Of a stretch of 51,903 bases of DNA, positions 4,230 through 28,066 are shown in pieces. The notes beneath the pieces were generated by a model that had not been told where the DNA came from, did no database searches, and worked only from the letters and a program-made list of their open reading frames with translations. A program made the position numbers and the translations under genes. Every line of letters starts with the position of its first letter. Position 1 is the first letter of the stretch. This stretch comes from Candidatus Nanopelagicales bacterium. GTDB taxonomy: Bacteria; Actinomycetota; Actinomycetes; S36-B12; UBA5976. The stretch lies in the NCBI GenBank assembly GCA_030157865.1, contig JAOATY010000035.1, positions 77,356 through 129,258 of the forward strand, written 5' to 3'.

Positions 4230-4237
4230 TGTTCATC

Positions 4238-4274
4238 AAAAACTGGGTGTCAGCATTGCTGGCACCCAGTTTTT
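4238..4274 (+). terminator. Rho-independent terminator after permease
   Basis: A 12-base arm (AAAAACTGGGTG) pairs with CACCCAGTTTTT, with an inner CAG/CTG pairing that extends the stem, followed by a T-rich run. It sits 8 bases after the permease stop and separates it from the next cluster. The A-rich left flank means it may also work in the opposite direction. Confidence 0.9.
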
Positions 4275-4340
4275 ATTTTGCTTAGAAAACTTTTCGGTAT
4301 TTGCTCAATGTTTCACTGCTAATTCCACAAGAATAAGGAC

Positions 4341-5384
4341 ATGGCAAATGACATTGAAGTTTGTAACTGGGCTCCTGATGAGGATGCTGATCCAGCAACC
4401 CACACATTTACTTTTGGCGGTCGCGAACCAGTAATCAGTGTTAAGCCAGGAACCATTATTGATTCTTGGTCTTTTGATTGCTTTGGTGGACGCGTTAAAT
4501 CAGCAAGTGACATGTCAACGCAAGTTTGTGATCCTAGATTTCTAAATCCGCAAACCGGACCGTTCTATGTTGAAGGCGCAGAGCCTGGTGACACTCTTGC
4601 GGTTCACTTTGTGTCGATTGAACCTCGGGAAGCATGGGGCGTAAGTACTACCGTTCCATTTTTTGGAGCGCTCACATCAACACCAACTACGGCAACTTTG
4701 CAGCCTGCTCTTTTAGAACGAACTTGGATTTACGAATTAGATTTACAAGATCGCTTGGTTCGTTACGCCGCAGCTGATACAAAGTTCACAGCAGCGCTTC
4801 CTCTTGATCCGATGCATGGAACTGTTGGTGTTGCACCAGCACTTGGTGAAGTTAGATCTTCTTTAACTCCTGGCAACTGGGGCGGAAATATGGACACCCC
4901 AGAAATGCGGGCTGGCGTCACCTGCTATCTCGGCGTCAATGTTGAAGGTGCACTGTTTTCATTTGGTGATGGCCATGCACGTCAAGGTGAAGGCGAAACT
5001 TGTGGCGTTGCAGTTGAAACCGCAATGGATACAGTTTTGATTTTGGATCTAATCAAAGGTGCTCCAACACCTTGGCCGCGAATTGAATCTGATGATCACA
5101 TCATGACCACTGGATCTACGAAGCCACTCGAAGATGCATTCCGAATTGCACATTCCGAGATGGTGCATTGGGTCAGTGACCTGACCGGTCAATCGACTTT
5201 GGACAGTTACCAGTTCGTATCTCAAACTGCTTTAACACCGGTCGCAAATGTTGTTGATACGAATTACACAATGGTTGCCAAAATTGCTAAAGACTACTTA
5301 GGTAATGTAAACGTCATGCAAGGAATGCATCAAAAGATGCGAGCCCGTGCAGCGCAGTGGCACGAATATCAGAAGGGTAAGTAA
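4341..5384 (+). CDS. Acetamidase/formamidase family protein
   Basis: A 347-residue protein of the FmdA/AmdA family, which hydrolyses short amides to the acid and ammonia. Recognisable family sequence includes FGGREPVISVKPG near the N-terminus, DPMHGTVGVAP and GNWGGNMDTPEM in the middle, and FSFGDGHARQGEGE, the conserved metal-site region. An AAGGAC ribosome binding site precedes the ATG. The stop overlaps the start of the GlcG-like gene (TAATG), so it heads a tightly coupled set with the B12-dependent dehydratase genes. Inference: it supplies ammonia from an amide that enters or arises in this pathway; the actual amide is not known. Confidence 0.9.
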   Translation: MANDIEVCNWAPDEDADPATHTFTFGGREPVISVKPGTIIDSWSFDCFGGRVKSASDMSTQVCDPRFLNPQTGPFYVEGAEPGDTLAVHFVSIEPREAWGVSTTVPFFGALTSTPTTATLQPALLERTWIYELDLQDRLVRYAAADTKFTAALPLDPMHGTVGVAPALGEVRSSLTPGNWGGNMDTPEMRAGVTCYLGVNVEGALFSFGDGHARQGEGETCGVAVETAMDTVLILDLIKGAPTPWPRIESDDHIMTTGSTKPLEDAFRIAHSEMVHWVSDLTGQSTLDSYQFVSQTALTPVANVVDTNYTMVAKIAKDYLGNVNVMQGMHQKMRARAAQWHEYQKGK

Positions 5385-5818
5385 TGCCAAGAGTTGAACG
5401 CATGGAAATTGATTTAGCACTAGCAATCGAAATGACAAACGCAGCGAAGGCCAAGGCTGTTGAAATCAATGCACCTATGTCGATCGCGGTGCTCGATGCT
5501 GGAGCAAACCTACTTAGCTTTCAGCGAATGGATGGCGCTGAATTAGCAGGCCCAAATCTTGCAGTCGACAAGGCATACACCTCAGTTACTAATCGAATTG
5601 AAACAGGAGAATTACGCAGTCGAGTCGCTCCTGATGGTGACTTGCCAGGCATGAGCGCAAATGGCGGTGGACGTTACATCGCATTTGCTGGCGGCATTCC
5701 ATGCTGGGATGGCGAACGCGTAGTTGGTGCCATTGGAGTTAGTGGTGGCTCATGGGAAGAAGACCAGATTTGTGCCGAAGCCGGAATTGAAGTTTTCAAG
5801 CGGGCCAGTAACGCATGA
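5384..5818 (+). CDS. GlcG/HbpS/PduO-C domain (DUF336) protein
   Basis: A 144-residue single-domain protein of the haem-degrading/GlcG family (PF03928). The conserved features are SIAVLDAGANLLSFQRMDGA in the first half, then the glycine-rich AFAGGIPC and VVGAIGVSGGSWEEDQ, with the usual C-terminal helix. The family includes haem-binding HbpS and the C-terminal domain of the cobalamin adenosyltransferase PduO. It overlaps both neighbours (TAATG at its start, ATGA at its end), so it is co-translated with the adenosylcobalamin-dependent dehydratase. The adenosyltransferase domain itself is absent here. A role near cobalamin or the dehydratase is inferred from context only. Confidence 0.85.
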   Translation: MPRVERMEIDLALAIEMTNAAKAKAVEINAPMSIAVLDAGANLLSFQRMDGAELAGPNLAVDKAYTSVTNRIETGELRSRVAPDGDLPGMSANGGGRYIAFAGGIPCWDGERVVGAIGVSGGSWEEDQICAEAGIEVFKRASNA

Positions 5819-8049
5819 CAACTAAAGAGCCAATTGGCCGCTTTCGTTTTATGAACGAACAGCGAGTCAATCTTGATGGCTTCGCAACACCTGCACCCGA
5901 ACTCGGACTCGTCGCATTCAATGGACTTAATGACCCGAAGCCTTCGATAACAATTAAAGAAAATCGAATTGTCGAAATGGATGGGCGAAGCGAATCGGAT
6001 TTTGATTCGATTGATGAATTCATTGCTCGCCACGGAATCGACCTGAGTGTGGCCATTGAGGCAATGGCGATTGATGATTTGGACTTTGCACGAAGACTTG
6101 TAGATCCAAATCATTCGCGCGCAGATATTGTTCGACTTTCCTCTGGAATGACTCCAGCAAAATTAGCCGCAGTGCTTTCAAAACTAAGTGCTGCCGAACT
6201 AGTAATTGCAATGACAAAAATGCGAGCTCGTCGAACACCAAGTAATCAAGCGCATGTCACCAATAGATCTGACGATCCGCTTTTGCTAGCTGCAGATGCA
6301 GCCACCGCCGCCGCATTTGGTTTTCGGGAATTAGAAACTACTGTCCCGGTTGCAGCTGACGCGCCATCAAATGCTGTTGCAGTTTCAATTGGCGCAGCCG
6401 TTGGCTCCCCTGGAGTCTTAGTTCAATGTTCAGTTGAAGAATCGGCTGAACTGGCACTTGGTATGCGCGGACTTGTTTCTTATGCCGAGACCGTTTCCTT
6501 GTACGGAACCGAACAAATTTTTATTGACGGCGATGACACTCCCTGGTCGAAAGCATTCTTAACAAGTGCATACGCCAGCCGCGGCATAAAGATGCGCGTA
6601 ACTTCGGGTGGCGGATCTGAAGCGCTCATGGGTGGCGCAGAAAAGTGCAGCATGTTTTATCTCGAGGCACGTTGCGTGGCTCTTGCCCGTGCAATCGGTG
6701 CTCAGGGAGTTCAAAATGGCGGCATTGATTCTGCTGCAGTAGCTGGCGCGGTCCCAGGTGGAGTTCGCTCCTTGATGGCAGAAAACGTAATGGTCATGTT
6801 GCGAAACTTAGAAGCATGCACTGGAAACGATGCCTTGATGAGTGAATCTGATGTTCGACGCACATCACGTACTCACCCAATCTTTATTGGTGGCTCAGAC
6901 TTTATAAATAGTGGCTTTGGCTCAATTCAGCGTTACGACAACATGTTTGGACCAAGCCAGTGGAACTCAGAAGACATAGATGATTTCTTAGCTATGCAAC
7001 GTGACTGGGGCGTAGACGGTGGTCTTCGCACTGCGGACGAAGTAGAAGTAGAACGACTCAGGCGTCGAGCCACGGAAGCAGTAACCGCCGTTTACTCTTG
7101 GCTTGGCTTGGGAGATTTCTCGCAAGAATGGGCAGATCAAGCAATTGATGCGGCTGGATCAAAAGATATTTCCTCCGGCGACTTAATGCTTCCGTTGACA
7201 GCTGCGCGAACCATTATGGAAACAAATGTCACAATGCTCGATGTAATTGCAGCGCTTGCGGAAAATGGTTTCGACCTTGAAGCTCAAAGATGTCTAGACA
7301 TGCTTAAAGCTCGAGTTGCCGGTGACTACCTACAAACTTCTGCGATTTTTGATGAAGAAATGAATGTCCTTTCGTTGGTAACTGATCCAAATGAATACTC
7401 AGGACCGGGAACTGGATACCAACCAACAAGTTCTCGTCAGAACGAAATCGACACAATTCGTCAACAGCGTTCGGTTTCGGACTTGTTAGCTGAACAACAA
7501 AGCTTTGACCATAAAAACATTTTTGTTAAGGGGTCAGCAGAAACGAGTTACGATCCGCGTGACGTTGTTATTGGAGTATCGCCGGCAACCGGTAAAGACA
7601 TTTGGGTAACACTTTCTGGACTAAGTCTTGCGGATGCGATTTCAGAAGTACTTGCTGGTCTTGAAGAAGAAGGATGCACTGGAAGAATTGTGCGAATCAA
7701 CGACTCCCTCGATTTAGGAATGATTGGTTTAACAGCAGCAAGGCTTTCAGGTTCTGGAGTTAGCGTGGGACTTCAGGCAAAAGGCACTGCACTAATTCAT
7801 CGCAGAGATCTTGCACCGCTTGCAAATCTAGAGCTTTACTCGGTCGCCCCAACAATTACTCGAGACCTTTATCGAATGATGGGAATCAACGCTGGTCGCC
7901 ATGCGAAGGGTGCAACGCCTGAGCCGGTCAGAAATCCATATTCAGATGAAGCTATTGAAGCTCGGTACCACACCAAAGTTGTCTCACTCGTGGCGATTGA
8001 ACGCAATTGTGTTAACAGCCATGGCCCAGAACTGATGGAGCTTCGATAG
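5815..8049 (+). CDS. pduCD: B12-dependent propanediol/glycerol dehydratase, fused large+medium subunits
   Basis: A 744-residue fusion. Residues about 1-545 match the diol dehydratase large subunit PduC, and about 560-744 match the medium subunit PduD. The catalytic residues known for the Klebsiella enzyme are all present at a constant offset of +4: Gln145 and His147 (QAHVTN), Glu174, Glu225 (YAETVSLYG), Gln300 (VQNGG), Asp339 (CTGNDA) and Ser366 (DFINSGFGS). The enzyme uses adenosylcobalamin radicals to turn 1,2-diols or glycerol into aldehydes. The fusion replaces two separate genes of the enterobacterial pdu operon; similar fusions are, as I recall, seen in actinobacteria. Intact active site argues for a working dehydratase. 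True substrate is open. Confidence 0.95.
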   Translation: MTTKEPIGRFRFMNEQRVNLDGFATPAPELGLVAFNGLNDPKPSITIKENRIVEMDGRSESDFDSIDEFIARHGIDLSVAIEAMAIDDLDFARRLVDPNHSRADIVRLSSGMTPAKLAAVLSKLSAAELVIAMTKMRARRTPSNQAHVTNRSDDPLLLAADAATAAAFGFRELETTVPVAADAPSNAVAVSIGAAVGSPGVLVQCSVEESAELALGMRGLVSYAETVSLYGTEQIFIDGDDTPWSKAFLTSAYASRGIKMRVTSGGGSEALMGGAEKCSMFYLEARCVALARAIGAQGVQNGGIDSAAVAGAVPGGVRSLMAENVMVMLRNLEACTGNDALMSESDVRRTSRTHPIFIGGSDFINSGFGSIQRYDNMFGPSQWNSEDIDDFLAMQRDWGVDGGLRTADEVEVERLRRRATEAVTAVYSWLGLGDFSQEWADQAIDAAGSKDISSGDLMLPLTAARTIMETNVTMLDVIAALAENGFDLEAQRCLDMLKARVAGDYLQTSAIFDEEMNVLSLVTDPNEYSGPGTGYQPTSSRQNEIDTIRQQRSVSDLLAEQQSFDHKNIFVKGSAETSYDPRDVVIGVSPATGKDIWVTLSGLSLADAISEVLAGLEEEGCTGRIVRINDSLDLGMIGLTAARLSGSGVSVGLQAKGTALIHRRDLAPLANLELYSVAPTITRDLYRMMGINAGRHAKGATPEPVRNPYSDEAIEARYHTKVVSLVAIERNCVNSHGPELMELR

Positions 8050-8051
8050 CA

Positions 8052-8417
8052 ATGAATAATCAAAAAGGTTTTTCCGGAAAGAACGTCTCCGAAGTAACAG
8101 TGGAATCAATCAGGCGTGGGGACATAACGCTTGATGACGTCAGAATTCATCCAGAAACTTTGGCAATGCAAGCCCAAGTTGCCCGAGATAACGGCAATCC
8201 TCAATTGGCCGAAAATTTCCTTCGCGCCGCTGAGTTAACTTCGATTTCCGATGAAGTGGTTATGGGTTATTACGATGCCTTGCGACCTGGACGCTCAACG
8301 CCGCAACAACTCATAGAAATTGCAAATGAACTGGAACTTAAAGGCGCAATAAAGAATGCCGAACTCTTCAAGCAGGCAGCCGATGTTTACGCACGACGTG
8401 GATTAGCTGCAAAATAG
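8052..8417 (+). CDS. pduE: Diol/glycerol dehydratase small subunit
   Basis: A 121-residue protein matching PduE: it has the DVRIHPETLAMQAQVARDNG segment, RAAELTSISDEVV, and the conserved YDALRPGRSTPQQL, followed by the C-terminal helix. The enterobacterial protein is about 170 residues; the shorter N-terminus here lacks the extension that in pdu systems targets the enzyme to microcompartments. It begins 2 bases after the fused large/medium subunit gene and so completes the alpha-beta-gamma holoenzyme. No shell-protein genes occur in the window, in keeping with a cytosolic enzyme. Confidence 0.93.
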   Translation: MNNQKGFSGKNVSEVTVESIRRGDITLDDVRIHPETLAMQAQVARDNGNPQLAENFLRAAELTSISDEVVMGYYDALRPGRSTPQQLIEIANELELKGAIKNAELFKQAADVYARRGLAAK

Positions 8418-8422
8418 CTCTT

Positions 8423-10066
8423 ATGGGACTCGTTGCTGGAATTGATATCGGTAATTCCACGACTGAAATCGTTATCTCTTCCGGAAGTAAACCTGTCGCT
8501 TGGGATCGCAGACCAACTCGTGGTATTAAGGGTTCTGAAGTATCCATAAAGGCAGCGGTGTCACTGCTTCAAAGTTTGCAGCGAGAGAATCAGCTTTCAG
8601 TAGAGCGAGTAGTAGTAGCACCTTGGCTACCAGTGGAAACAACTACTTCAACGATTCACGAACCATTGCCCGATACCGGTCGATTACAGATTCTTGAAAC
8701 TGCGCACCAAAGTGTGGTTGGTGATGGCTGGGCAATTGGCGAACCTTGGTTGATTACGCAATCCCCTAAAGCTGCAGTCTCTTTAATTGCAGTTGTGTCA
8801 ACCGGAGTTGGATTTGAATTTGCGTCTGCCGCAATAAATCGCGAATTAGCCTCAGGTGCAAATATCGTCGGGGCGGTGATTGCTGATGATGAAGCGGTTT
8901 TGATTGCTAAGCGCATTAACGCAGACATACCGATTGTCGACGGTGTAGATACTGATCGTGCACAATTAGCGCAAAAACTATTTCTAGAAGTTAGACCACA
9001 AAACGCTTCACTCAAAGTGGCGACAGATGTATGGGCGCTTCGCTCTGCACTTGAATTATCCGAAGCAGACGCTGCCCCATTAAATGAAATTGTTCGCTGG
9101 GTAAAGAATGAGCGCACTGCACTTATCGGAACGTTTGCTGAATCTAAAGGTTCCCAGCAAACAACAAATGGATTCATTAGTTGGAATGATGGTTCAACAA
9201 CAGATCTATTTGAAGCAGTGGCAAGAATTGAAACTTCTCTCATTGGAGAAGCTAGAGAAATTTCGATTGCTGAATCTGTAAACACATCTGATATTTGGGG
9301 CTTTGATATCACAAAAGTCTTAGCCGAACGAGGCTTACGCCAAGTTGGCCACACGCGAGATTTAGCGCTTGCCCAGCTTTCACCACACAGCGCAAATACG
9401 GAATTAGATTTAACTGCGTTGTTTGGCGTTCCAGTACAAGTTGCAGAATCCGAAAGTTACGCTGCGCGCTTAGGTGCGAAAAGCACGCCAGGCGTTGGAT
9501 CTAATGCCGCAATTCTTGACATCGGTGGCGGCACAATCGACTTGATATCTGATGTGGAGATTTCTGCCGCAGGAGCGGGCGAGCTCTTGACCGCAGCAGT
9601 TGCCTTCGCCCTAAATACTTCAAGAGGAGCAGCGGACTGGATTAAGCGTGGCCCGGCGCAAAGACTTGAATCTCCGCAGGTATTGCTCTCGGAGGATGGC
9701 AACAAAGCATTTGTTTCAGAATCTGTGCAGTACCCAGCATCAGCAATGGGTTCACTGGTGGCACCAGGCCCAGCTGGCTTCCTGACATTTGGGCAGAATC
9801 TGCAACCCGCAGAATGGCGCATCATGCGCCAAGGTCTGAAGCAGGCTGCGATTGGTAAAAACGTGGCGCGACTTCTACGCACATTTGAAACTCAAACTGG
9901 AAACTCAAATGAATTAGATCTGGTCGTAGTTGGTGGACCAGTTGCAGACGACGAACTACTTCCCGTTTTAGCAGCGATTCCTGGAGTAAAAGGAATTGGT
10001 CGCGGCAATGTAGCAGGCATGCTCGGACATAGATTTGCTGTTGCCTATGGGCTTTCGCAGCTCTAG
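8423..10066 (+). CDS. pduG: Diol dehydratase reactivase, large subunit
   Basis: A 547-residue ATPase of the DdrA/PduG family with an actin-like fold. The N-terminal phosphate loop is GIDIGNSTTEIVIS (residues 5-18) and the second nucleotide motif ILDIGGGTIDL is near residue 365. The family exchanges damaged cobalamin for adenosylcobalamin on inactivated diol dehydratase, using ATP. It is about 60 residues shorter than the Klebsiella and Salmonella proteins. The gene starts 5 bases after the small dehydratase subunit. A gene for the small reactivase subunit (PduH/DdrB) is not seen nearby; it may be dispensable, elsewhere, or replaced by another protein. Confidence 0.92.
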   Translation: MGLVAGIDIGNSTTEIVISSGSKPVAWDRRPTRGIKGSEVSIKAAVSLLQSLQRENQLSVERVVVAPWLPVETTTSTIHEPLPDTGRLQILETAHQSVVGDGWAIGEPWLITQSPKAAVSLIAVVSTGVGFEFASAAINRELASGANIVGAVIADDEAVLIAKRINADIPIVDGVDTDRAQLAQKLFLEVRPQNASLKVATDVWALRSALELSEADAAPLNEIVRWVKNERTALIGTFAESKGSQQTTNGFISWNDGSTTDLFEAVARIETSLIGEAREISIAESVNTSDIWGFDITKVLAERGLRQVGHTRDLALAQLSPHSANTELDLTALFGVPVQVAESESYAARLGAKSTPGVGSNAAILDIGGGTIDLISDVEISAAGAGELLTAAVAFALNTSRGAADWIKRGPAQRLESPQVLLSEDGNKAFVSESVQYPASAMGSLVAPGPAGFLTFGQNLQPAEWRIMRQGLKQAAIGKNVARLLRTFETQTGNSNELDLVVVGGPVADDELLPVLAAIPGVKGIGRGNVAGMLGHRFAVAYGLSQL

Positions 10067-10149: not shown

Positions 10150-11745
10150 ATGGCAACGACAGTTTGGCACAACGGCAAGGTTTGGATAAATGAAAATCAA
10201 ACTACACATGCGCTAGCTGCTAGCAATGGATTGATTGTTGCTCATGGTGACGAAGCGCTCACGCTAACTGCTGATGAAAAAATTGACTTAAATGGTGCAA
10301 CTTTGTTGCCTGGTTTTGGTGATGGCCATGCGCACCCAGTCTTTGGCGGTATTGAAACTTTATTCGCTCCGGTTCGTGGGCCAGAAAAACTTGAGCAACT
10401 TCTCGAAGCAGTCAAGACTTGGGCTGATGCAAATCCAGATGCACCATGGGTTCGTGGTGAAGGTTATGACCCGAGCCTGTCGCCGCGTGGTGAATTCGAT
10501 GCCAAGTGGTTAGATGAAATTGTTCCTGATCGTCCAGTTGTTTTACGTGCAATGGATTACCACACTGCTTGGGTTAACACCAAGGCCCTTGAACTTGCTG
10601 GAATAACCAAGGACACTCCTCAACCTGCCGATGGCGAAATTTCGCTGCGCGAAGATGGCACACCTTCCGGCACACTTCGCGAGTGGGGTGCCTGGAAAAT
10701 GGTTTACGACTTACTGCCACCACTCACTTTGGATCAGCGTGACCAAGCATTGCGTGCAGCATCAACTACTTTCTCTTCGTGCGGCGTTACTTGGGCGCAA
10801 GATGCGTGGGTTGAAGAAGACACGATGGAAAGTTGGCTGCAAGCGGCTAGGTCAGGGTCACTTAAGTTTCGCGCAAATCTAGCTTGGTTAGCTGAACCAG
10901 AAGGTGTTTGGAAAACCAAAATTGATTCCTTTGTTACAAATCGCGACAGGGTCAAAAATGAAGCCCCACAATTCCTAACAGGCAACACTGTGAAATTCTT
11001 CGCAGATGGAATCCTTGAAGGTGGCACTGCTGCAGTGCTGGAAGATTATTGCGATTGCCCAAACAAAGGTATGCCGAACTGGCGCCGTGAAGAACTAATT
11101 GAAGCAGTAGCTGCAGTTGTCGCAAAAGGTTTTCAAGCTCACATCCATGCAATTGGCGATGCCGGCATTCGTAATGCATTAGACGCATTTGAAAATGCCC
11201 GCAAAGTCGGTGGCAAGTTGATTAATCCCGTTATTGCTCATTCCCAGTTAATTGATCCAGCAGATCTTCCGCGCTTCAAAGAACTCGATGTGATTGCAAA
11301 CTTTGAACCACTTTGGGCACAGCTAGCTAATGAACAAGTCGTGCTCACAATTCCACGGCTTGGTCAGGAAAGAGCAGACCGCCAATATCCAATGGCGACG
11401 CTTTTGCATAGTGGCACCAAGATTTCCTTTGGTTCGGATTGGCCAGTGACATCCCCGGTTCCGATGGAAGGAATTGGCGTTGCAATTACACGTCAGACAG
11501 ACGAAGAATTTCCTGAAGGTGGATGGGTTCCGCAAGAACGCTTAACACTGGATGAAGCCCTCACTGCCTACACAATGGGAACTGCAGTTCAAGCCGGTGA
11601 AGCTGAACTTTGGGGTGACTTGGCAATTGGCAAACGTGCCGACGTTGTCATGATGGCTACAGACATTCATGCCCTAGAACCAATGCAGGTTCGTCGGGCT
11701 AAAGTTGCAGGCACTTGGCTCGGTGGCGTTCGAGTTTTTGGATAG
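10150..11745 (+). CDS. Amidohydrolase family 3 (YtcJ-like) protein
   Basis: A 531-residue metal-dependent amidohydrolase of the PF07969 group. The N-terminal metal motif is DGHAHPVFGG near residue 58, a later HAIGDAG motif and the C-terminal SDWPVTSPVPMEG aspartate region follow, and the protein ends with the composite beta-sandwich segment IGKRADVVMMATDIHALEP. An AGGGGAGA ribosome binding site precedes the ATG. Members hydrolyse amide or ester bonds of varied small molecules. It lies between the B12-dependent dehydratase genes and the urease-like genes, suggesting hydrolysis of an amide or cyclic intermediate; substrate is not predictable. Confidence 0.88.
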   Translation: MATTVWHNGKVWINENQTTHALAASNGLIVAHGDEALTLTADEKIDLNGATLLPGFGDGHAHPVFGGIETLFAPVRGPEKLEQLLEAVKTWADANPDAPWVRGEGYDPSLSPRGEFDAKWLDEIVPDRPVVLRAMDYHTAWVNTKALELAGITKDTPQPADGEISLREDGTPSGTLREWGAWKMVYDLLPPLTLDQRDQALRAASTTFSSCGVTWAQDAWVEEDTMESWLQAARSGSLKFRANLAWLAEPEGVWKTKIDSFVTNRDRVKNEAPQFLTGNTVKFFADGILEGGTAAVLEDYCDCPNKGMPNWRREELIEAVAAVVAKGFQAHIHAIGDAGIRNALDAFENARKVGGKLINPVIAHSQLIDPADLPRFKELDVIANFEPLWAQLANEQVVLTIPRLGQERADRQYPMATLLHSGTKISFGSDWPVTSPVPMEGIGVAITRQTDEEFPEGGWVPQERLTLDEALTAYTMGTAVQAGEAELWGDLAIGKRADVVMMATDIHALEPMQVRRAKVAGTWLGGVRVFG

Positions 11746-11788: not shown

Positions 11789-12466
11789 GTGGAGTTAACG
11801 CCTTCGGAACTTGATCGGTTACTGATCTTTAATGTTGCCCAACTTGCCCAATCTCGACGGGCACGTGGCCTAAAGCTAAATAAGCCAGAGGCTGTCGCGT
11901 TGATTTCGCACGCAGTAATTGAAGCGGCTCGAGATGGAGCAAGTCATTCAGCCGCACTTAGTGCTGGCATTGCGGCAGTTTCGGACTCTGAACTGCTACC
12001 TGGTGTTGGACCGCTTCTTACCGGAATCGCCGTTGAGGCAGTTTTCTCGGATGGTCGCCGATTAGTAGTTGTTGATTTTGAGTCTGCAGATGATGACGCC
12101 CCAGGGAAAGTAACCCGCCTTGAACCAATTGCGCACACTACAAACGCAGACAGCGTTTCATTAGTAGTTGTAAACGAATCCGATATCCAAATCTCGGTCA
12201 CAACACACATGCATTTCTTTGAAGTCAATCCCAAACTTCGATTTGATCGTGTCACGTCGTACGGAAAACATCTGCACATTCCAGCTGGCGAGCATGTTGA
12301 CTTTCCACCAGGTGTCGAAGTTTCCGTGAACTTGATTCCGATTTCGGGAAATCGAATCTTGATTGGGTTTGCTGGTCTAGTTGATGGTCCGTTGGACGCG
12401 CCTGGGACAAAAGAAAGCGCTGTCGCCAAAGCTAAGTCGCTCGGATATTTGGGATTTGAATCATGA
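11789..12466 (+). CDS. ureAB: Urease-like gamma-beta fusion subunit
   Basis: A 225-residue fusion. Residues 1 to about 100 match urease gamma (UreA: MELTPSELDRLLIF, RGLKLNKPEAVALIS, the GVGPLLTGIAVEAVFSDG segment). Residues from about 120 match urease beta (UreB: HMHFFEVNPKLRFDR, then HIPAGEHVDFPPG). Such fusions are known in some ureases. The GTG start has AAGGTAGG 8 bases upstream. A preceding CCTAC (11751-11755) could pair with GTAGG in that site. It overlaps the alpha-subunit gene by 4 bases. The beta domain is recognisable but diverged, and function follows whatever the unusual alpha subunit does. Confidence 0.88.
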   Translation: MELTPSELDRLLIFNVAQLAQSRRARGLKLNKPEAVALISHAVIEAARDGASHSAALSAGIAAVSDSELLPGVGPLLTGIAVEAVFSDGRRLVVVDFESADDDAPGKVTRLEPIAHTTNADSVSLVVVNESDIQISVTTHMHFFEVNPKLRFDRVTSYGKHLHIPAGEHVDFPPGVEVSVNLIPISGNRILIGFAGLVDGPLDAPGTKESAVAKAKSLGYLGFES

Positions 12467-14154
12467 ATCAACAAGAACTAGCTGAGATTCAGCAAGACAT
12501 AGCCGTTCATGGCGCACGCAAAGGAGACTTTGTTCGCCTCGGTGATACCCAACTTGTCGTCCGTGTGGAAGCTGATGATCGTGAACTTGGAAATGAAGTT
12601 CAGATCGGTTTTGGAAAGAACTTACGTGACGGCATTGGGATGCGTTCTGTTCCAAGTAGTGAGTCGTGCGATGTTGTAATCACGAATGTTTTGATCATTG
12701 ATGCGATTCAAGGAATCCGCGTGAGTTCAATTGGAGTTCGTGGCGGACGAATCAGTGCAATTGGTCGCGCGGGAAATCCTGACACTATGGATGACGTCGA
12801 CGTAATTATCGGCAGCGGTTCGATCGTCATATCTGGCGAAGGATTAATTGCAACTGCCGGTGGTATCGATACCCACGTCCACGCTATGTCGCCGCGAGTT
12901 TGCGATGCAGCTCTTGGCAGTGGAGTAACGACAATAATTGCGCAGGAATTTGGGCCATTTTGGGGTGTTGGAGTTAGTTCTAAGTGGGCGCTTGAACAGG
13001 CTCACAATATGTATGGAGCTTGGCCCTTGAATGTTGGAATTCTAGGAAGAGCTGCGGGTTCGACTCGCGCCCCACTTGAAGAAGCTCTTGCTGGTGGAGT
13101 TTGCGGTTTCAAGATTCACGAAGACACCGGTGCTCACCCACGAACAATTGATACAACGTTAACTTTTGCTGACGAATTTGATGTTGCCGTTGCGCTACAC
13201 ACCGACGGATTGAACGAAATGCTAAGCGTCGCTGACACTTTGAAGGTAATTGACGGCCGCGCAGTTCACGCCTTCCATGTTGAAGGTTGCGGTGGCGGTC
13301 ACTCCCCTGACGTTTTAACTATGGCTGGGCGCGAAAACATTTTGGCATCTTCTACCAATCCCACGCTTGCCTACGGTGTCAATGCTGCAGATGAACATGT
13401 CGCCATGATTATTTCGGCGCATGGCATGAACCCTGAATTGCCTAGTGATGTTCAGATGGCACGCAACCGAGTGCGGAATGCCACAATGGCTGCAGAAAAT
13501 CGTTTGCACGATATGGGAGTCATTCCAGTTACTTCATCTGATGCCCTCGGCATGGGCAGAGTTGATGACACTTGGCGGAAAACTTTTGCTATGGCAAGTA
13601 TGTTCGCAGATCACGCAATACTCGATGGTTCTGTCGCTGCTGATGATGTCGCCGTTAACAACGATCGAGTTTTAATGCATGTTGCAAAAATTACAACTAA
13701 CCCCGCTCTGGTGCATGGCTTGTCTCATGAAATCGGATCGCTACAAGTTGGACTCATGGCTGACATAGTTCTTTGGCCTTACGCGACCTTCGCATCCAAG
13801 CCAAACATGATCATTAAGAATGGTCTGCCAGCTTGGGGAGTTGTCGGTGATCCTGGGGCTACCGTTTCAAATGCTCAACCTTTGGTAATTGGGCCGCAAT
13901 TTGGTGCCTACGGAGAAACTGCCGAAGATCTAGGTGTCCATTTCACTAACGGCAATTCCGAGATTTCGTTATCTCGCAGACGCAGTGTTCCTGTAAAAAA
14001 CACCAGAACTATCAAAAGTTCAGACATGATCCGGCACGGAATTCTTGGCGAAATCCATGTCGACCACACGGGAAGTGTCGTAACGTTCAATGGTCAGCAC
14101 ATTACGAGCGAACCCCAAAACGCAGCGACACTCACCCGCACATTTTTGCTTTAG
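12463..14154 (+). CDS. ureC: Urease alpha-subunit-like amidohydrolase
   Basis: A 563-residue protein collinear with UreC (about 567 residues). Nickel ligands are kept: His138 and His140 (THVH), Lys217 for carbamylation and His219 in FKIHED, His246, His272, and Asp360 in TSSDALGMG. The flap keeps catalytic His320 and Arg336 but has Ala319 in place of the usual Cys and Gly321 in place of His. The loop after GPF (about 164-185) differs strongly from the GPAAGTNATTCTPG of true ureases. No ureD, E, F or G gene lies in the window. It may be a urease with accessory genes elsewhere or a paralogue acting on another urea-like or carbamoyl substrate. Confidence 0.85.
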   Translation: MNQQELAEIQQDIAVHGARKGDFVRLGDTQLVVRVEADDRELGNEVQIGFGKNLRDGIGMRSVPSSESCDVVITNVLIIDAIQGIRVSSIGVRGGRISAIGRAGNPDTMDDVDVIIGSGSIVISGEGLIATAGGIDTHVHAMSPRVCDAALGSGVTTIIAQEFGPFWGVGVSSKWALEQAHNMYGAWPLNVGILGRAAGSTRAPLEEALAGGVCGFKIHEDTGAHPRTIDTTLTFADEFDVAVALHTDGLNEMLSVADTLKVIDGRAVHAFHVEGCGGGHSPDVLTMAGRENILASSTNPTLAYGVNAADEHVAMIISAHGMNPELPSDVQMARNRVRNATMAAENRLHDMGVIPVTSSDALGMGRVDDTWRKTFAMASMFADHAILDGSVAADDVAVNNDRVLMHVAKITTNPALVHGLSHEIGSLQVGLMADIVLWPYATFASKPNMIIKNGLPAWGVVGDPGATVSNAQPLVIGPQFGAYGETAEDLGVHFTNGNSEISLSRRRSVPVKNTRTIKSSDMIRHGILGEIHVDHTGSVVTFNGQHITSEPQNAATLTRTFLL

Positions 14155-14163
14155 GAGTTTGCG

Positions 14164-15162
14164 ATGGCGTTAAACCTAGTCACTGCATCTGGGTCCGGCG
14201 CTGAACGCGGCGCACAAATCGGTGAGCAACTTTCAGGATTGCTTGAAACGGCTTGGAACAGATGGGTACTTCATTTCAGTAAAAACGAAGTGGATGCCGA
14301 AGAGTTAGCGCAACGATTAACTGAAGTTGGCGGCTGGGAAACTGCGGAACGTTATTGCCCAGATTTGGTTGCGGAATTGGAAGCGATGGCTGAAGCCGCA
14401 AACATGCCTTGGTATCAAGTAGCTGCACTGTCAATGCTCGATGAATCGTGGGCACTAACTGGTGGCATGGGGTGCACTGCAGTTGCGATCACTCGTGACG
14501 GTTCCCGAGCCGCTGGACAAAACATGGATTTACCGGACTGGACTAATGGATTACAAACCGTATTACGAGTTAAAGACGAATCCGGTCTTGGCGTAATTGC
14601 AGCGACGTATCCTGGATCACTTGCCACCATGGGTATGAATTCCAATGGCGTAATCGTTGTGGTTAATGCGCTAGATCTAGCTATAAACATGACGGGTATG
14701 CCGGTTGACTTTGTTACGCGAGGTGCCTTGCATCAACCAACTGCCGCAGATGCCATTTCTTACATCAGAGAAATTCCGCATGCAGTAGGTCAGAACTACA
14801 CAGTTCTCGACAGCAAAGATCTGTTCATGGTTGAAGCCGCTGCGGACAAAGTTTTGGATGTGCCGACACATCCGGAGGTATCAGGTCATACCAATCATGC
14901 ATTTACCCGTGAATACTCCGGATCCGAAGGTTCGTATGCTCGGATGGCTGCAGTCGAGGTCAATCGCAAAAGTTTAAACACGGCTGAAGACATAAAGAAC
15001 TTGCTTCTTGATAAGGATTCGGGAGTCTGCATCACACTTGGTCGATGGCGTGAAGACATGTACTCCTTTATGGGGTTAGTTGGCGACGCTGGGACAAAAC
15101 AGGCGTGGGTCAATTCAGCGCCGGCCTACGATGGCGCTTTTGAAGAAGTTTCATTTATCTAG
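14164..15162 (+). CDS. C45-type Ntn hydrolase (acyl-CoA:6-APA acyltransferase family)
   Basis: A 332-residue protein resembling the AAT family (PF03417). The expected self-cleavage site with N-terminal nucleophile cysteine is in GGMGCTAVAI near residue 103, followed by GQNMDLPDW and SNGVIVVVNAL, both typical of the fold. Members hydrolyse or transfer acyl groups from amides after autoproteolysis of the precursor. An AGGAG ribosome binding site lies 7 bases before the ATG, 9 bases after the urease-like gene, so it is in the same operon. An amide-cleaving role in the pathway is inference. Confidence 0.8.
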   Translation: MALNLVTASGSGAERGAQIGEQLSGLLETAWNRWVLHFSKNEVDAEELAQRLTEVGGWETAERYCPDLVAELEAMAEAANMPWYQVAALSMLDESWALTGGMGCTAVAITRDGSRAAGQNMDLPDWTNGLQTVLRVKDESGLGVIAATYPGSLATMGMNSNGVIVVVNALDLAINMTGMPVDFVTRGALHQPTAADAISYIREIPHAVGQNYTVLDSKDLFMVEAAADKVLDVPTHPEVSGHTNHAFTREYSGSEGSYARMAAVEVNRKSLNTAEDIKNLLLDKDSGVCITLGRWREDMYSFMGLVGDAGTKQAWVNSAPAYDGAFEEVSFI

Positions 15163-15241: not shown

Positions 15242-16486
15242 ATGAGTTCACAAAATAATGTCACTGTCATTGGTGGCGGAATCATCGGTCTTGCTTGCGC
15301 CTGGGAATTAGCTAAAGATGGTGCATCGGTAATCGTTGTTGAAACTGGCGGATCAAGTTACGGCACTTCACTTGCCAATGCAGGTTGGATCAGCCCAAGT
15401 CACATCATTCCGTTTGCAGCACCTGGAATGGTTCAGACTGGATTCAAGAATTTGATCGGACGCACTGGCGCTTTTGCAATGACACCTGGTGCCGGACCGT
15501 TACTTGCTCCCTGGACTCTGAAGTTTGCGCGCTCATGCACTGACGCACATGTGGATCACTGTGCACCTGCGCTTAAAGAATTGCTTGACACCAGCATGGA
15601 TGTCATTGAAGGACTAACTGAAACAACTGACTTAAAGCGAACAAATCAACCGCAGTGGTACGTCTACACATCGGACAATGCTGAAGCAGATGCAGAACAC
15701 GAAGTTGATCTCGTTACTAAGTACGGAGTCGATGCAAAGCAACTTGATCTTGCTACCAGCTTGGAGCAAGAGCCCATCCTTAAAGACACAGTTAAAGCAG
15801 TTGTGGAGTTCAGTACTGACTTTGGATTAGACCCAGGAAAGCTCGTAGAGGTTTATCGACGTAATTGTGAAGCAATCGGCGTTACCTTCCGAAGTGAGAA
15901 TGTAACGGGAATGTCTTCAACTAGCCGGAACGTAACCGTTGTTACAACGACCGACTCTTGGATTTGTGATTACGTAGTTCTAGCTGCAGGCGTATGGTCT
16001 CGCGAACTAGCAAAGAGCGTTGGCGAAAATCTTCCAATCATGCCGGCTAAGGGCCAGTCGGTAACACTTCCAGGCGTAACCAATAGTCCTTCCAGAACTT
16101 TGATGCTTGCCGATCAGCGAATTGCAACCAATCCGCTGGATTGGGGATTCCGAATGAGCACTGGGTTTGCGCTTACCTCCCCAAGCGATATGTCGGTTAA
16201 CTCGAAGGCAACCGAGAAGTTGATAAACACTGCACGCCAGGCATTACATCTTCCTGAGAAGTTTGAAGTTAAAAATGAATTGGCTGGATTGCGTCCTGCG
16301 AGCCCAGATGGCATGCCATATATAGGTGCGCTGCCTAAGGCGCCAAGAGTGATTGCAGCCACTGGCCATGGAATGCTGGGCTTGATGATGGGGCCAGGAA
16401 CCGGAAAATTTGTCTCAGATCTAATTGCCGGACGCCCAGTTTCTCGCGATGTGTTGAAATTCTCCCCTGCTAGACCCCGTCTTTAA
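15242..16486 (+). CDS. FAD-dependent oxidoreductase, D-amino acid dehydrogenase-like
   Basis: A 414-residue DAO-family flavoprotein. The N-terminal VIGGGIIGLACAWELAKDG is the ADP-binding loop, ANAGWISPSHIIP matches the DadA N-terminal region, and the C-terminus has GLRPASPDGMPYIGALP and GHGMLGLMMGPGTGK, the conserved FAD-closing segment. The family oxidises D-amino acids, glycine or secondary amines to imines. A 79-base gap with its own TAGGCT box suggests a separate promoter from the upstream operon. The setting, beside hydrolases and a polyamine importer, fits oxidative deamination; the exact substrate is undetermined. Confidence 0.88.
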   Translation: MSSQNNVTVIGGGIIGLACAWELAKDGASVIVVETGGSSYGTSLANAGWISPSHIIPFAAPGMVQTGFKNLIGRTGAFAMTPGAGPLLAPWTLKFARSCTDAHVDHCAPALKELLDTSMDVIEGLTETTDLKRTNQPQWYVYTSDNAEADAEHEVDLVTKYGVDAKQLDLATSLEQEPILKDTVKAVVEFSTDFGLDPGKLVEVYRRNCEAIGVTFRSENVTGMSSTSRNVTVVTTTDSWICDYVVLAAGVWSRELAKSVGENLPIMPAKGQSVTLPGVTNSPSRTLMLADQRIATNPLDWGFRMSTGFALTSPSDMSVNSKATEKLINTARQALHLPEKFEVKNELAGLRPASPDGMPYIGALPKAPRVIAATGHGMLGLMMGPGTGKFVSDLIAGRPVSRDVLKFSPARPRL

Positions 16487-16614: not shown

Positions 16615-17682
16615 TTGAGCGAGAAGTATCTCGAGATTCGCAACCTTACAAAAGTTTTCCAAACCCCTGAAGGTGGCGAAGTTCGCGCACTTGATGACGT
16701 GACTTTGGATATCGCCAGCGGCGAGTTCTTTATCTTGCTTGGTCCTTCTGGTTGTGGCAAAACTACGTTGCTTAGAAGTATCGCGGGACTCGAGTACCCA
16801 GACAGTGGCGAGATCGTGCTTCTAGGTGAGCGCATTGATGACAAACCGCCATATGATCGCCCAGTTAATACTGTGTTCCAGTCCTATGCCCTGTTCCCAC
16901 ACATGACTGTTGGCGACAACATTGCATTTGGCTTAGAGATGGAAAATGTTGATAAGGCAGAAATCGCTAAGCGAGTTGAAGAAGCTCTCGAGCAAGTTCA
17001 GCTTTCAGGTTATGCAAAGCGCATGCCATCCCAACTTTCTGGTGGACAGCAACAACGTGTTGCACTAGCTCGCGCACTTGCAAAGAAGCCAAAGGTGCTT
17101 TTACTTGACGAGCCACTTTCGGCTCTGGATTTAAAGCTTCGTCGTGGCATGCAGGTTGAACTTAAGCGCCTGCAACGTGAGACCGGAATTACCTTCGTAT
17201 TCGTTACTCACGATCAAGAAGAAGCAATGTCAATGGGTGATCGAATTGCCGTATTTAGCCAAGGAAAGATTGTTCAGCTAGATACGCCAGTTGAGGTTTA
17301 CCGTCGACCAGTTAATGCCTACGTAGCTGACTTCATTGGTGAAACAAACTTGATTAAGGGCACGGTTGCTCCTGGTGGAATTTCACTTCCTGGTGGAAAC
17401 GTTTTGCCAACCGATCAACTTGCTGCCGACTCAGTTATTCCAGCTTCTGGCGAAGTTACCGTAGCTATTCGTCCTGAAGATTTAGTTCTTGCAACCAATG
17501 GCATGATCAGTGGAACTGTGCGAGACGTTATCTTCACTGGTGACTCAGTTCGAGTTCACGTAACTGTAGGTGACGTAGAAGTTATCGCATCACTTGCTTC
17601 TTACGGAACTGAAATTCCAGCACAAGGAAGCCAGGTCACACTAAGTCCAGAGCATCGCGCTGCACGCACGGTGGCTTCATGA
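16615..17682 (+). CDS. potA: Spermidine/putrescine ABC transporter ATP-binding protein
   Basis: A 355-residue ATPase. Walker A is GPSGCGKTT, the Q-loop is [11 protein letters not shown], the signature is [15 protein letters not shown], and Walker B is [15 protein letters not shown]; a C-terminal TOBE domain (IRPEDLV) completes the PotA layout. Start is TTG at 16615, with GTAGG just upstream; no in-frame ATG sits close. It overlaps potB by 4 bases (ATGA). It powers import of the ligand bound by the two downstream lipoproteins. The 128-base gap before it shows no clear terminator. Confidence 0.95.
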
Positions 17683-18602
17683 CCGCTGTAACCACTCCGC
17701 CAAAGAAGCAGGCGCAGCGAGGTCGGCCAGGCCAATCCTCGCCAAAGCTTGCGTACTTGCCAATCTTGTTTTTGGCTTTTGCCATTGGCATCCCGCTGGT
17801 AATCATCGTTATTTACTCATTCCTTGAGAAGCCTTCACAAGGAACTGGAGTTAAGTGGGTTTTCACTCTCGAAAACTACAAAGCTTTGTTTATCCAAGAG
17901 AAGCTTGATGGCACCACCGCCATTGATACTCGCTACATAAAGGTCTTATGGGCTTCTTTCTATTACTCAGTCATCACCACGGTTGTAACCCTTGCACTAT
18001 CTATTCCAACTGCGATGTGGATTGCTACTCGTGATGCTCGTAAGCGCAACCTTCTAGTCGCCTTGGTGACTCTGCCATTTTGGATCAGCATCTTGATTCG
18101 TACTTACGGCATGCGTCAGATCATTGCTGATGAAGGTCCGATTGGAAAGTTTCTTGCGATCTTTGATGTTTCTTTCAGCATTCTTTACACGCCAACAGCA
18201 ACGATCCTTGGCCTGATTTATGTATTCCTGCCATTCATGATCTTGCCTATCTATGCATCAGCAGAGCGATTCGATTTCCGACTTGCCGAAGCTGCATATG
18301 ACTTGGGTGCAAAGCGAATGACCGTAGTTCGTCGAGTGATTTTGCCATCAATTCGCCCAGGCATCATTTCGGGAATTGCTTTGGTATTCATTCCGGCACT
18401 TGGTTCGTTCTTGCAATCTGACATGTTAGGTGGCGGCAAGACCAACATGGTTGCAAACGTCATTGCAAATAACTTTGGTCAAGCGCGAAACTGGCCATTT
18501 GGTAGCGCGCTGGCGGTATTGCTGATTGTTCTTACCTTGCTATTCGTACTCATCATGCAAGGTGTCGCACAACGACGCGGAGACAAGGTGGAATTGGTAT
18601 GA
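17679..18602 (+). CDS. potB: Polyamine ABC transporter permease
   Basis: A 307-residue membrane permease with about six transmembrane helices and the EAA-type cytoplasmic loop [27 protein letters not shown], which contacts the ATPase. The N-terminus is a short basic cytoplasmic tail. It overlaps potA and potC by 4 bases at each end. Family comparison and order (ATPase, two permeases, binding protein) identify the PotB position. Confidence 0.93.
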
Positions 18603-19417
18603 GCCATACTCAGACACCCACAAGTAAGCGTGGCAAGTTAGTAAATCTGCGAAACTTCCCTGGCTTTAATCCAACAGCCTGGTTTGTGCTGTTCTTTTTA
18701 TACATGCCGCTGATTTATGTCGTGATCTACTCATTCAACTCAAGCCGCATTGGTGCGGTTTGGGAGAGTTTCTCGCTGAAGTGGTACGGCAAAGTATTTG
18801 AGAATACTGACATTCAGCGCGCTCTAAAGAACTCACTTCAAGTTGGTCTAGTTGCAACAATTTTGTCGACAACACTTGCCGTGATGGCAGCCCTTGGACT
18901 ACTTCGAATGAAGCGAGCTGGTAAAGCCGTCGCTATTGCACTTATCGGTGCACCACTAATCATTGCTGAAATCGTTTTGGCTGTAGGAACACTTGGATTG
19001 TTTATCGCAGTCGGTGTTCCACTAGGCAAAGTTGGCTTGATTGTTGCGCACACGGCATTTTGTATTCCGTTTGCGCTGTTACCGATTCGGGCTCGCCTAA
19101 GTCAGTTAGATATGGCGCCATTCGAAGCTGCATCTGACTTGGGTGCTAATGAAAAGCAAATTCTGCGTCGCATTACCTTGCCATTACTTGCTCCTGCAAT
19201 CTTTGCTGGCGCACTTTTGGCGTTTGCAATTTCGATTGACGACTTCATTACATCGTTCTTTGTTGCTGGCCCAGGAGCCACAACATTGCCGGTCTACATT
19301 TTTGGCATGATCCGCTCAACAGTCACACCGGAAGTAAATGCAATTTCAACATTGCTTCTGTTGTTCTCGGGCAGCGTGCTAATCGGATCGTATTTGATCC
19401 AAAGAAAAAGGAGATAA
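18599..19417 (+). CDS. potC: Polyamine ABC transporter permease
   Basis: A 272-residue permease with about six transmembrane helices. The EAA loop is FEAASDLGANEKQILRRITLPLLAPA, and AFAISIDDFITSFFVAGPG is a typical PotC segment. It overlaps potB by 4 bases and is followed by potD after 2 bases. With PotB it forms the membrane channel. Confidence 0.93.
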   Translation: MSHTQTPTSKRGKLVNLRNFPGFNPTAWFVLFFLYMPLIYVVIYSFNSSRIGAVWESFSLKWYGKVFENTDIQRALKNSLQVGLVATILSTTLAVMAALGLLRMKRAGKAVAIALIGAPLIIAEIVLAVGTLGLFIAVGVPLGKVGLIVAHTAFCIPFALLPIRARLSQLDMAPFEAASDLGANEKQILRRITLPLLAPAIFAGALLAFAISIDDFITSFFVAGPGATTLPVYIFGMIRSTVTPEVNAISTLLLLFSGSVLIGSYLIQRKRR

Positions 19418-19419
19418 GA

Positions 19420-20544
19420 ATGGCTAGCAACAAGAGGCGTCGCGCCTCCTATGTAGCTGCACTTGCTGCCGCAAGCGCACTACTACTTTCTGCATGTGGC
19501 GGGGAGACCACTGCAGATTCAGGCGCGGGCGAAGCCACTGCAGCTGCAGGGGAATTCCCAACTACTGGCTCAGGCGTAGTTAATGTTTACAACTGGACCG
19601 ATTACATCGATCCAGAAGAGCTAAAGCGCTTCACTGCTGAAACTGGCATCGAAGTTATTTTGGATACCTACGACAGCAATGAAACTTTGTTGGCGAAACT
19701 TCAGTCCGGTGCAACTGGCTATGACGTCATTGTTCCTTCTGACTACATGGTGCAGCAGATGATCGAACTTGATCTGCTTCAGAACATTGGCGTAAGCAGC
19801 TTCCCTAACGGTGGCAACATCAAGGACAACTTGGTAGATGTTTACTGGGATGCAGGACGCAACTACACCGCACCTTGGAACTACGGAACTACAGGCATTG
19901 CCTGTAACTTCGCTGCTGAACCAGGTTGTGCAAACATCAAGTCTTGGAAGGACTACTTCACTGCAGGTCTTCCAAAGATGGATTCACTAAAGGATCAGGT
20001 TGAAGTTGTCTCAGCTGCACTTCGTGCAACTGGTGTTGGTCCAGATGATCTCTGCACCACCGACAAGGCTAAGTATGTTGCTGCTGAAGAATTACTTGCT
20101 GGATTCAAGCCAGCCGTAATTGAATCAGATGGCGGCATCGAGCGCGTTGTTGCTGGAACTTCAAACGTGCGTCACGCATGGAACGGTTCCACTCACCGCA
20201 TGACAGTAGAGAATCCTGATGTTCAGTTCATCTACCCAAGTGAAGGTATCAACCTATGGGCAGACAATCTAGCTGTTCCAGTCGGTGCTCCTAACTTGGA
20301 TAACGCCAAGATCTTCATCAACTGGATGATGGATCCAAAGGCTGCAGGTGCTCAGAGCAACTTCTCTGGCTACGACAACGGAATCAAGGGTTCAGATGCA
20401 TTCATGGATGAAGCACTGAAAACAGATCCAGCAGTTGTAGTTCCAGCTGACAAGCAGGCACTTATTTCACCACTTCCAAACTGTGGTGAAGAAGCCCGCG
20501 AGTTGTACACCCAGGTATTTACTACTTGGACAACTAGCCAATAA
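19420..20544 (+). CDS. potD: Polyamine-binding lipoprotein (first copy)
   Basis: A 374-residue extracytoplasmic binding protein. The basic N-terminus and hydrophobic core end in the lipobox LLLSAC (Cys about residue 26), so it is membrane-anchored. Mature features are VNVYNWTDYIDPE, SNETLLAKLQSGATGYDVIVPSDYM and YPSEGINLWADNLAVPVGAPN, typical of PotD/PotF. Start follows AAAAAGGAGATAAGA, a strong ribosome binding site. A near-identical-length paralogue follows after a terminator. Ligand (spermidine, putrescine or an analogue) is inferred from family. Confidence 0.94.
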   Translation: MASNKRRRASYVAALAAASALLLSACGGETTADSGAGEATAAAGEFPTTGSGVVNVYNWTDYIDPEELKRFTAETGIEVILDTYDSNETLLAKLQSGATGYDVIVPSDYMVQQMIELDLLQNIGVSSFPNGGNIKDNLVDVYWDAGRNYTAPWNYGTTGIACNFAAEPGCANIKSWKDYFTAGLPKMDSLKDQVEVVSAALRATGVGPDDLCTTDKAKYVAAEELLAGFKPAVIESDGGIERVVAGTSNVRHAWNGSTHRMTVENPDVQFIYPSEGINLWADNLAVPVGAPNLDNAKIFINWMMDPKAAGAQSNFSGYDNGIKGSDAFMDEALKTDPAVVVPADKQALISPLPNCGEEARELYTQVFTTWTTSQ

Positions 20545-20711: not shown

Positions 20712-21836
20712 ATGAAGACTATGAACAAGCGCAAAGCTACTTATGTTGCAGCCCTTGCTGCTGCCGGAGCTTTGCTTCTATCCGCGTGTGGCGGAGAATC
20801 AACTGCTGGCGGAGATGCCTCTGCACCAGCTGCAGCATCAGGTGAATTTCCAACATCAGGTTCTGGCGTTGTAAACCTTTACAACTGGACTGACTACATT
20901 GATCCAGCACTGCTAGACCAGTTTGAAGCAGAAACTGGTATCGAAGTTATCCTCGATGTATTTGATAGCAATGAAACTTTGCTTGCCAAACTACAATCAG
21001 GTGCAACTGGTTACGACGTAATCATGCCTTCTGACTACATGGTTGAGCAGATGATCGGCCTTGGCATGCTTCAGGAAGTAGATGTGGCTTCATTCCCTAA
21101 TGGAAAGAACATCGCACCTGAGTTCATGGATGTGTACTTCGATCCAGGTCGTAAGTACACCGCTCCTTACATGTACGGCACAACTGGTATCGCTTGTAAC
21201 ACCAAGCTTGAACCAGAATGTGAAAACATTAAGTCTTGGAAAGATTTGATGACCGGAAACTTTGCGAATGTAAATGCTCTTAAAGATCAGGTAGAAATCG
21301 TTTCCGCTGCACTTCGTGCAACTGGCGTACCTGCTGCTGACCTTTGCACCACAGACACTGCAAAGTATGTTGCTGCCGAAGAATTGCTAGCCGGATTTAA
21401 GCCAGCAGTTATCGACAACGATGGTGGTAACGAGCGCATGATCACCGGACAGGCAAGTATCCGTACTTCTTGGAACGGCGACACTCATCGCATGAAGATG
21501 GAAAATCCAGACATCATCTTCATCTACCCAAGTGAAGGCCTTAACTTCTGGTCAGATCACATGGCAATTCCAGTCGGTGCACCGAACTTGGATAACGCCA
21601 AGATTTTCATGAACTGGATGATGGATCCTGCAAACATGGCTGCAGCAAGTAACTTCTCGGGTTACAACAATGCAATCACTGGAACTGCAGACCTAATGGC
21701 AGATGAACTAAAGAACGATCCAGGCGTTATCGTGCCTGAAGAGTTCAAGTCACTTCTAAGCCCAATTCCAAACTGTGGCGAAGAAGCTCGCGAGCTATAC
21801 ACCCAGGTATTCACCACTTGGTTGGATAGTCAGTGA
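20712..21836 (+). CDS. potD: Polyamine-binding lipoprotein (second, tandem copy)
   Basis: A 374-residue paralogue of the preceding PotD with the same lipobox LLLSAC and the same mature blocks (VNLYNWTDYIDP, SNETLLAKLQSGATGYDVIMPSDYM, NCGEEARELYTQVFTTW). Differences cluster around the presumed pocket: GIACNTKLEPECENIKS versus GIACNFAAEPGCANIKS, and MYGTTG versus NYGTTG. It has its own AAGGGAGA ribosome binding site and lies between two terminators, so it is expressed separately and could lend a second specificity to the single PotABC channel. Tandem duplication is the simplest origin. Confidence 0.94.
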   Translation: MKTMNKRKATYVAALAAAGALLLSACGGESTAGGDASAPAAASGEFPTSGSGVVNLYNWTDYIDPALLDQFEAETGIEVILDVFDSNETLLAKLQSGATGYDVIMPSDYMVEQMIGLGMLQEVDVASFPNGKNIAPEFMDVYFDPGRKYTAPYMYGTTGIACNTKLEPECENIKSWKDLMTGNFANVNALKDQVEIVSAALRATGVPAADLCTTDTAKYVAAEELLAGFKPAVIDNDGGNERMITGQASIRTSWNGDTHRMKMENPDIIFIYPSEGLNFWSDHMAIPVGAPNLDNAKIFMNWMMDPANMAAASNFSGYNNAITGTADLMADELKNDPGVIVPEEFKSLLSPIPNCGEEARELYTQVFTTWLDSQ

Positions 21837-26527: not shown

Positions 26528-26561
26528 TAAATCGCATTGATAAAGATACGTGGGGATCAAA

Positions 26562-28040: not shown

Positions 28041-28066
28041 AACTTAGAACAAAACTAGGAGAAGAA

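Follow-up and report, generated by a model that had tools for sequence, protein, structure and literature searches.

A urease-like UreGB-UreC pair from a distinct actinobacterial clade, a candidate N-alkylurea hydrolase linked to agmatine deiminase

Urease is usually viewed as a one-substrate enzyme that relies on its own maturation machinery. The urease UreA2B2 of Helicobacter mustelae is reportedly accessory-independent, as Carter et al. are said to have described in 2011. Iron-cofactored ureases occur in Helicobacter (PMC11541087), and the urease family is thus not tied to nickel. Clusters of ure(AB)C genes lacking accessory genes were noted in Streptomyces coelicolor and S. avermitilis in 2008, and the accessible part of that paper gives neither a function for them nor a link to AguA (PMC2492869). 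AguA converts agmatine to N-carbamoylputrescine, which AguB then converts to putrescine, CO2, and ammonia (PMC9397018). A search by title, abstract, and term, mostly of literature outside subscription journals, found no paper tying the clade described here to AguA.

A urease-like gene pair in a distinct clade

The window, by which we mean the whole 51,903-nucleotide stretch of DNA analyzed here, was originally predicted to carry a divergent urease-like pair of reading frames at 11789–14154. Both were located there, with the following features.

11789..12466, plus strand: UreGB, fused urease gamma-beta subunit (Pfam PF00547 and PF00699; NCBIfam NF009671)
12463..14154, plus strand: UreC-like alpha subunit of an accessory-free clade (Pfam, NCBIfam, tree, residues, and model)
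12943..12984, plus strand: replaced pocket loop, codons 161–174 (Q161, E162 ... W167-G-V-G), from the clade alignment
13405..13437, plus strand: flap region, codons 315–325 (A319, H320, G321), from the alignment

UreGB has a GTG start and is 225 amino acids in length, and the 563-amino acid UreC-like reading frame overlaps it by 4 bp. Between them, the two proteins have all three kinds of urease domain, gamma, beta, and alpha (PF00547, PF00699, PF00449, PF01979), with Urease_alpha (PF00449) and Amidohydro_1 (PF01979) assigned by Pfam to the alpha protein. The predicted fusion of gamma and beta is evident in Pfam and NCBIfam, which place Urease_gamma and Urease_beta in one protein. We rejected this fusion as a sign of divergence, since canonical actinobacterial ureases can be fused too; NCBIfam has its own family for the fused subunit, and UreGB scores 241.6 bits against NF009671 (cut-off 243). 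The alpha protein scores 530.7 bits against the urease_alph equivalog TIGR01792, under the cut-off of 680, and passes the looser PRK13207 subfamily model. Its nearest structurally solved relatives are true ureases, at an identity of about 42% or less. The AlphaFold2 model of the alpha protein (mean pLDDT 79.7; below 50 at residues 164–169 and 362–364) matches urease alpha chains with a TM of 0.87, and H. mustelae UreA2B2 (3qga) is among its structure matches.

The UreC-like protein is a member of a distinct clade and not a single odd gene. When 70 alpha subunits, H. mustelae UreB2 and SCO5526 not among them, were placed on a maximum-likelihood tree, all 38 divergent sequences lay on one side of a branch with 100/100 support. 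On the other side are 29 canonical ureases (100/99), most of which have UreG or UreF nearby and some of which are archaeal. The original prediction had looked to the phylogeny of UreC, and the window's protein does not branch among canonical ureases. Two streptomycete-like sequences (L242 and L253) and one from Chloroflexota (L085) fall between the two sides on long branches, so their placement is unsure. L242 (4455–8411) and L253 (4465–8397) form a third urease-like group with the order UreGB-UreC-YtcJ and no UreF or UreG nearby; their UreC is ~44% identical to canonical UreC and shares the four-residue loop deletion and Gly363 described below. L085 (1690–3926) has a UreC-like sequence in which most of the substrate loop is deleted, and it is possibly another non-urease.

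The clade spans the class, with members in several families besides that of a Streptomyces-like genus, and among 397 sampled genomes from across the phylum, strong matches lie only inside the class. Reading frames in genomes of the order are without internal stops. Named plasmid copies are annotated as "urease subunit alpha". On plasmids of Streptomyces anulatus and Embleya, clade members close off an NRPS cluster at one end (L258, 1–11499, and L259, 1–11579); these clusters have a phosphotransferase and an oxygenase-like gene and no AguA, and their clade enzymes are possibly used in natural-product biosynthesis. A MAG titled Bifidobacterium breve (L048) has a UreC 87% identical to that of the window's freshwater actinobacterial locus, and the name is probably wrong.

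The absence of ureD/F/G, predicted for the surroundings of the locus, extends to the whole source assembly (1.61 Mb, 93% complete), in which no UreD, UreF, or UreG was found. The alpha protein has matches in 69 of the order's 166 genomes, 67 of these with the divergent form, and UreF was found in only 4 of the 166. Sixty-five of the 67 clade-bearing genomes are without UreF. The two exceptions (G002 and G074), as well as G004, have UreF and UreG beside another ureC, which is ~41% identical to the query. Loss of accessory genes through assembly gaps was rejected on this pattern, with 65 of 67 genomes lacking UreF and the other two keeping it by a canonical ureC. A short contig of G086, a genome without an alpha match among those listed, holds a UreF-UreG fragment, and a contig of the clade-bearing genome G009 ends in a partial UreG. 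Some streptomycete-like genomes additionally carry a canonical urease with UreF, UreG, and UreD.

Active site, substrate loop, and flap

Residues were compared between 81 clade members and 78 canonical ureases. The metal ligands H138 and H140 (Klebsiella H134 and H136), K217, H246, H272, and D360 are present in all members of both sets, as are H219, H320, and R336 (81/81 and 78/78). The predicted retention of the nickel ligands, Lys217, His320, Arg336, and Asp360 is thus a property of the entire clade. The ligand set is also that of the iron urease UreA2B2, and the metal is not readable from such a set.

Differences from canonical ureases are concentrated in a replaced loop and at a few single positions. 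Gln161 (81/81) and Glu162 (80/81) stand where canonical ureases have Gly-Gly, Trp167-Gly-Val-Gly is found in all 81 clade members, and a four-residue deletion follows position 173, leaving the 161–174 loop 4 residues shorter than the urease loop. The unrelated loop originally placed at about 164–185 is therefore a fixed signature of the clade. Position 363 is Gly in 81/81 clade members and Ala in 75/78 canonical ureases; position 249 is Gly in 78/81 versus Thr in 74/78; and position 276 is Cys in 78/81 versus Ala in 78/78. In the AlphaFold2 model, barrel strand 2 (155–161) ends at Q161, which should bring Glu162 to the barrel mouth.

The flap of the window's protein has Ala319 and Gly321, as had been predicted, but position 319 varies across the clade (V in 36, A in 17, C in 14, and S in 12 of 81). 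With Cys kept in 14 of 81 members, loss of Cys319 was rejected as the defining change. C319A variants of Klebsiella urease have been made and crystallized, so a change in the flap alone does not exclude urea as a substrate. The urease-type combination of substrate loop, A363, and Cys319-His320 flap is not found in the clade, though H320 is kept.

Agmatine deiminase linkage, gene neighbors, and proposed function

The Streptomyces-like genus has 81 clade copies in 74 of 121 genomes. An AguA-family gene lies within 3.5 kb of 80 of these 81 copies, on the same strand in 80/80; the median gap for the 80 is 54 bp, and in 76 of them AguA is directly downstream. The linkage also occurs in other families, with the gene order permuted: AguA-UreGB-UreC, AguA-TetR-UreGB-UreC, and UreGB-UreC-AguA-TetR were seen, along with convergent or divergent arrangements. 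A TetR regulator shares this neighborhood in many genomes. Across the order, the clade is present in 31 of 37 AguA-positive genomes versus 36 of 129 AguA-negative ones (Fisher p 1.3e-9, uncorrected for kinship).

In two lineages the linked AguA scores 551 and 516 bits, over the agmatine_aguA equivalog cut-off of 381.8. The Streptomyces-type AguA scores 303 bits against the same cut-off, and its nearest solved structures are agmatine deiminases; it could deiminate another guanidino compound. The catalytic GGxxHCxT motif is exact in five of six linked AguA copies checked, and the sixth has one change. The AguB equivalog (TIGR03381) was found over cut-off in none of the 166 genomes of the order and in none of the 121 of the Streptomyces-like genus; control genomes did yield it under identical search conditions. 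AguB-like nitrilases below the cut-off are present in most genomes and could act on N-carbamoylputrescine. A second clade copy lies among four AguA-family genes at L233 (323–16994), and multi-AguA regions occur in several streptomycete-like genomes, where they perhaps serve other guanidino compounds.

The AguA link is seen in the clade at large, in the Streptomyces-like genus and in other families; in the window, AguA's place is occupied by YtcJ. No AguA was found in the window's own genome, and the substrate proposed there is thus based on homologues and transporter type. The genes around UreGB-UreC are as follows.

2451..5384, plus strand: amino acid permease and FmdA/AmdA amidase, family-specific neighbors
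5815..10066, plus strand: B12 diol/glycerol dehydratase (fused large-medium subunit and small subunit) and reactivase, family-specific neighbor
10150..11745, plus strand: YtcJ-type amidohydrolase (Amidohydro_3, Pfam), 43 bp upstream of UreGB
14164..15162, plus strand: C45 autoproteolytic hydrolase, conserved within the window's family only
15242..16486, plus strand: DadA-like FAD amino acid/amine dehydrogenase, conserved within the window's family only
16615..20544, plus strand: PotABCD-type ABC transporter (ATPase, two permeases, and substrate-binding protein)
20712..21836, plus strand: second PotD-like binding protein (PotD model 164.6 bits, cut-off 582)
26550..29416, plus strand: PuuC-like aldehyde dehydrogenase and omega/putrescine-type class-III aminotransferase

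Among 68 loci, the adjacent partner is YtcJ in 31, AguA in 24, both in 0, and neither in 13, the last including the plasmid copies in NRPS clusters. The partner pattern requires three changes on the tree, and genus g24 (L132, L138, and L142) forms an AguA-linked branch inside an otherwise YtcJ-linked family. The window's family largely keeps the order permease-FmdA-dehydratase-reactivase-YtcJ-UreGB-UreC-C45-DadA-PotABCD. Beyond the family, only YtcJ and PotABCD of this order persist, and PotABCD-YtcJ-UreGB-UreC is contiguous in several genera. The amidase (FmdA), YtcJ, and C45 neighbors named in the original prediction were confirmed by Pfam and NCBIfam. The B12-dehydratase cluster is likewise present in the window, but it is family-specific and outside the conserved context. 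We rejected it as a general functional context, as dehydratase, C45, DadA, and FmdA are all limited to the family (with the one exception of an FmdA homologue near L137), and the dehydratase is probably outside the core function of UreGB-UreC.

PuuC is the best model for the aldehyde dehydrogenase (582 bits, below the cut-off of 850), and the second-best solved structure for the class-III aminotransferase is named a putrescine aminotransferase. Located 12–15 kb from UreGB-UreC, this pair of genes may plausibly, if weakly, represent downstream putrescine catabolism and is not part of the core. A riboswitch as a clue to the ligand was rejected, as Rfam gave only tRNAs in the window and seven related loci. 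The fused large-medium subunit gene of the B12 diol dehydratase is directly preceded by an HbpS/GlcG-like gene (window 5381–8417), and none of the reading frames annotated in the window was recognized as a microcompartment gene. Elsewhere in the window (34031–37705), a 2-oxoglutarate dehydrogenase E1 is fused with an acyltransferase catalytic domain.

We propose, with a probability of roughly 0.6, that UreGB-UreC is an N-alkylurea hydrolase, most likely of N-carbamoylputrescine, that fills the AguB step after AguA. The enzyme would convert an N-alkylurea to the free amine, CO2, and ammonia. Carbamylated Lys217 would carry a dinuclear metal centre that, together with His219, His320, and Arg336, polarizes the ureido carbonyl as in urease, and by analogy with urease chemistry carbamate would be the first product. 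The side chains lost at 249, at 363, and in the flap, together with the shortened 161–174 loop, may leave space for the alkyl chain, and the nearly invariant Glu162 may hold the distal ammonium of the substrate. Maturation would proceed without UreDFG. In the window, the substrate would be imported through the PotABCD-type transporter, and YtcJ might perform the guanidino-to-ureido step that AguA performs elsewhere; this is the weakest step of the proposal. The original suggestion of a carbamoyl or ureido substrate other than urea gains support from the clade-wide AguA linkage, and further from the missing AguB equivalog, the absence of ureDFG in the order's clade members, and the separate phylogeny, with the substrate itself still deduced from context.

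Two other activities come into question. UreGB-UreC might hydrolyze different ureido or carbamoyl compounds, made by other guanidino deiminases or by YtcJ, with N-carbamoylputrescine a minor substrate or none. The Streptomyces-type AguA below the equivalog cut-off, the L233 locus with its four AguA homologues around UreC, and the NRPS-cluster copies without AguA fit such a role, and the window's YtcJ, C45, and FmdA neighbors suggest amide or hydantoin chemistry; we nonetheless think it unlikely, since linked AguA passes the agmatine deiminase cut-off in two lineages and the PotABCD transporters are of polyamine type. A true urease scavenging urea, either accessory-independent like H. mustelae UreA2B2 or borrowing accessories, would explain why the metal ligands and catalytic residues are all kept in a urease fold that has 3qga among its matches, and iron-cofactored ureases do exist (PMC11541087). 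This appears distinctly improbable: the clade stands apart from all sampled ureDEFG-linked ureases, its substrate-loop and A363G changes are invariant, some streptomycete-like genomes have the canonical enzyme with UreF/G/D as well, and 80 of 81 copies are linked to agmatine deiminase, whose product is a ureido compound and not urea.

The missing nickel-insertion genes UreD/F/G could also point to a relic or a structural homologue devoid of hydrolase activity. We give this very little credence, given catalytic residues conserved in 81/81 members, reading frames free of internal stops in genomes of the order, and an operon that 80 of 81 copies in another lineage retain. The chemistry of UreGB-UreC would be urease-like, yet we do not file the pair as a urease because of its substrate loop, its equivalog score, its phylogeny, and its lack of UreD/F/G genes; a hydrolase of N-carbamoylputrescine or another alkylurea is the most likely assignment. 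The broader proposition stands in our estimate at about even odds: a urease-family branch widespread in Actinomycetes, streptomycete-like genomes among them, would have switched from urea to N-alkylureas such as N-carbamoylputrescine, would assemble its metal centre free of UreDEFG, and would replace AguB in agmatine breakdown, its ureido substrate being supplied by either AguA or YtcJ.

Comparison with known systems

If the N-alkylurea hydrolase assignment is true, this large sister clade shows how the specificity and maturation dependence of urease can shift, and it fills the gap at the second step of the pathway that agmatine deiminase opens in Actinomycetes. The label "urease subunit alpha" would then need correcting in many genomes, and with it statements that freshwater actinobacteria and streptomycetes use urea.

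The pair resembles the urease UreABC (Klebsiella aerogenes 2kau and Sporosarcina pasteurii 1ubp; EC 3.5.1.5) in subunit make-up and fold (TM 0.87) and in having all metal ligands, the carbamylatable Lys217, His219, His320, and Arg336. It differs in sequence (~40% identity) and in belonging to a separate clade, in a substrate loop that is shorter and replaced, in the A363G and T249G changes, in the loss of the flap Cys in the window, in lacking UreD/F/G, and in having AguA, or YtcJ with PotABCD, alongside. UreA2B2 (3qga) is likewise of the urease family and, with its Fe cofactor, shows a way around Ni maturation; it is not known to have an AguA context. UreA2B2 itself hydrolyzes urea and is found in Helicobacter of carnivores (PMC11541087). 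AguB (nitrilase family, TIGR03381) shares the proposed reaction and the pathway partner AguA, but its fold is unrelated to that of the clade protein, a urease-family amidohydrolase. As mentioned in passing in the 2008 paper, the ure(AB)C genes of S. coelicolor and S. avermitilis have in common with the window's pair a fused UreAB with UreC and absent accessory genes (PMC2492869), and they, SCO5526 among them, probably belong to the same clade.
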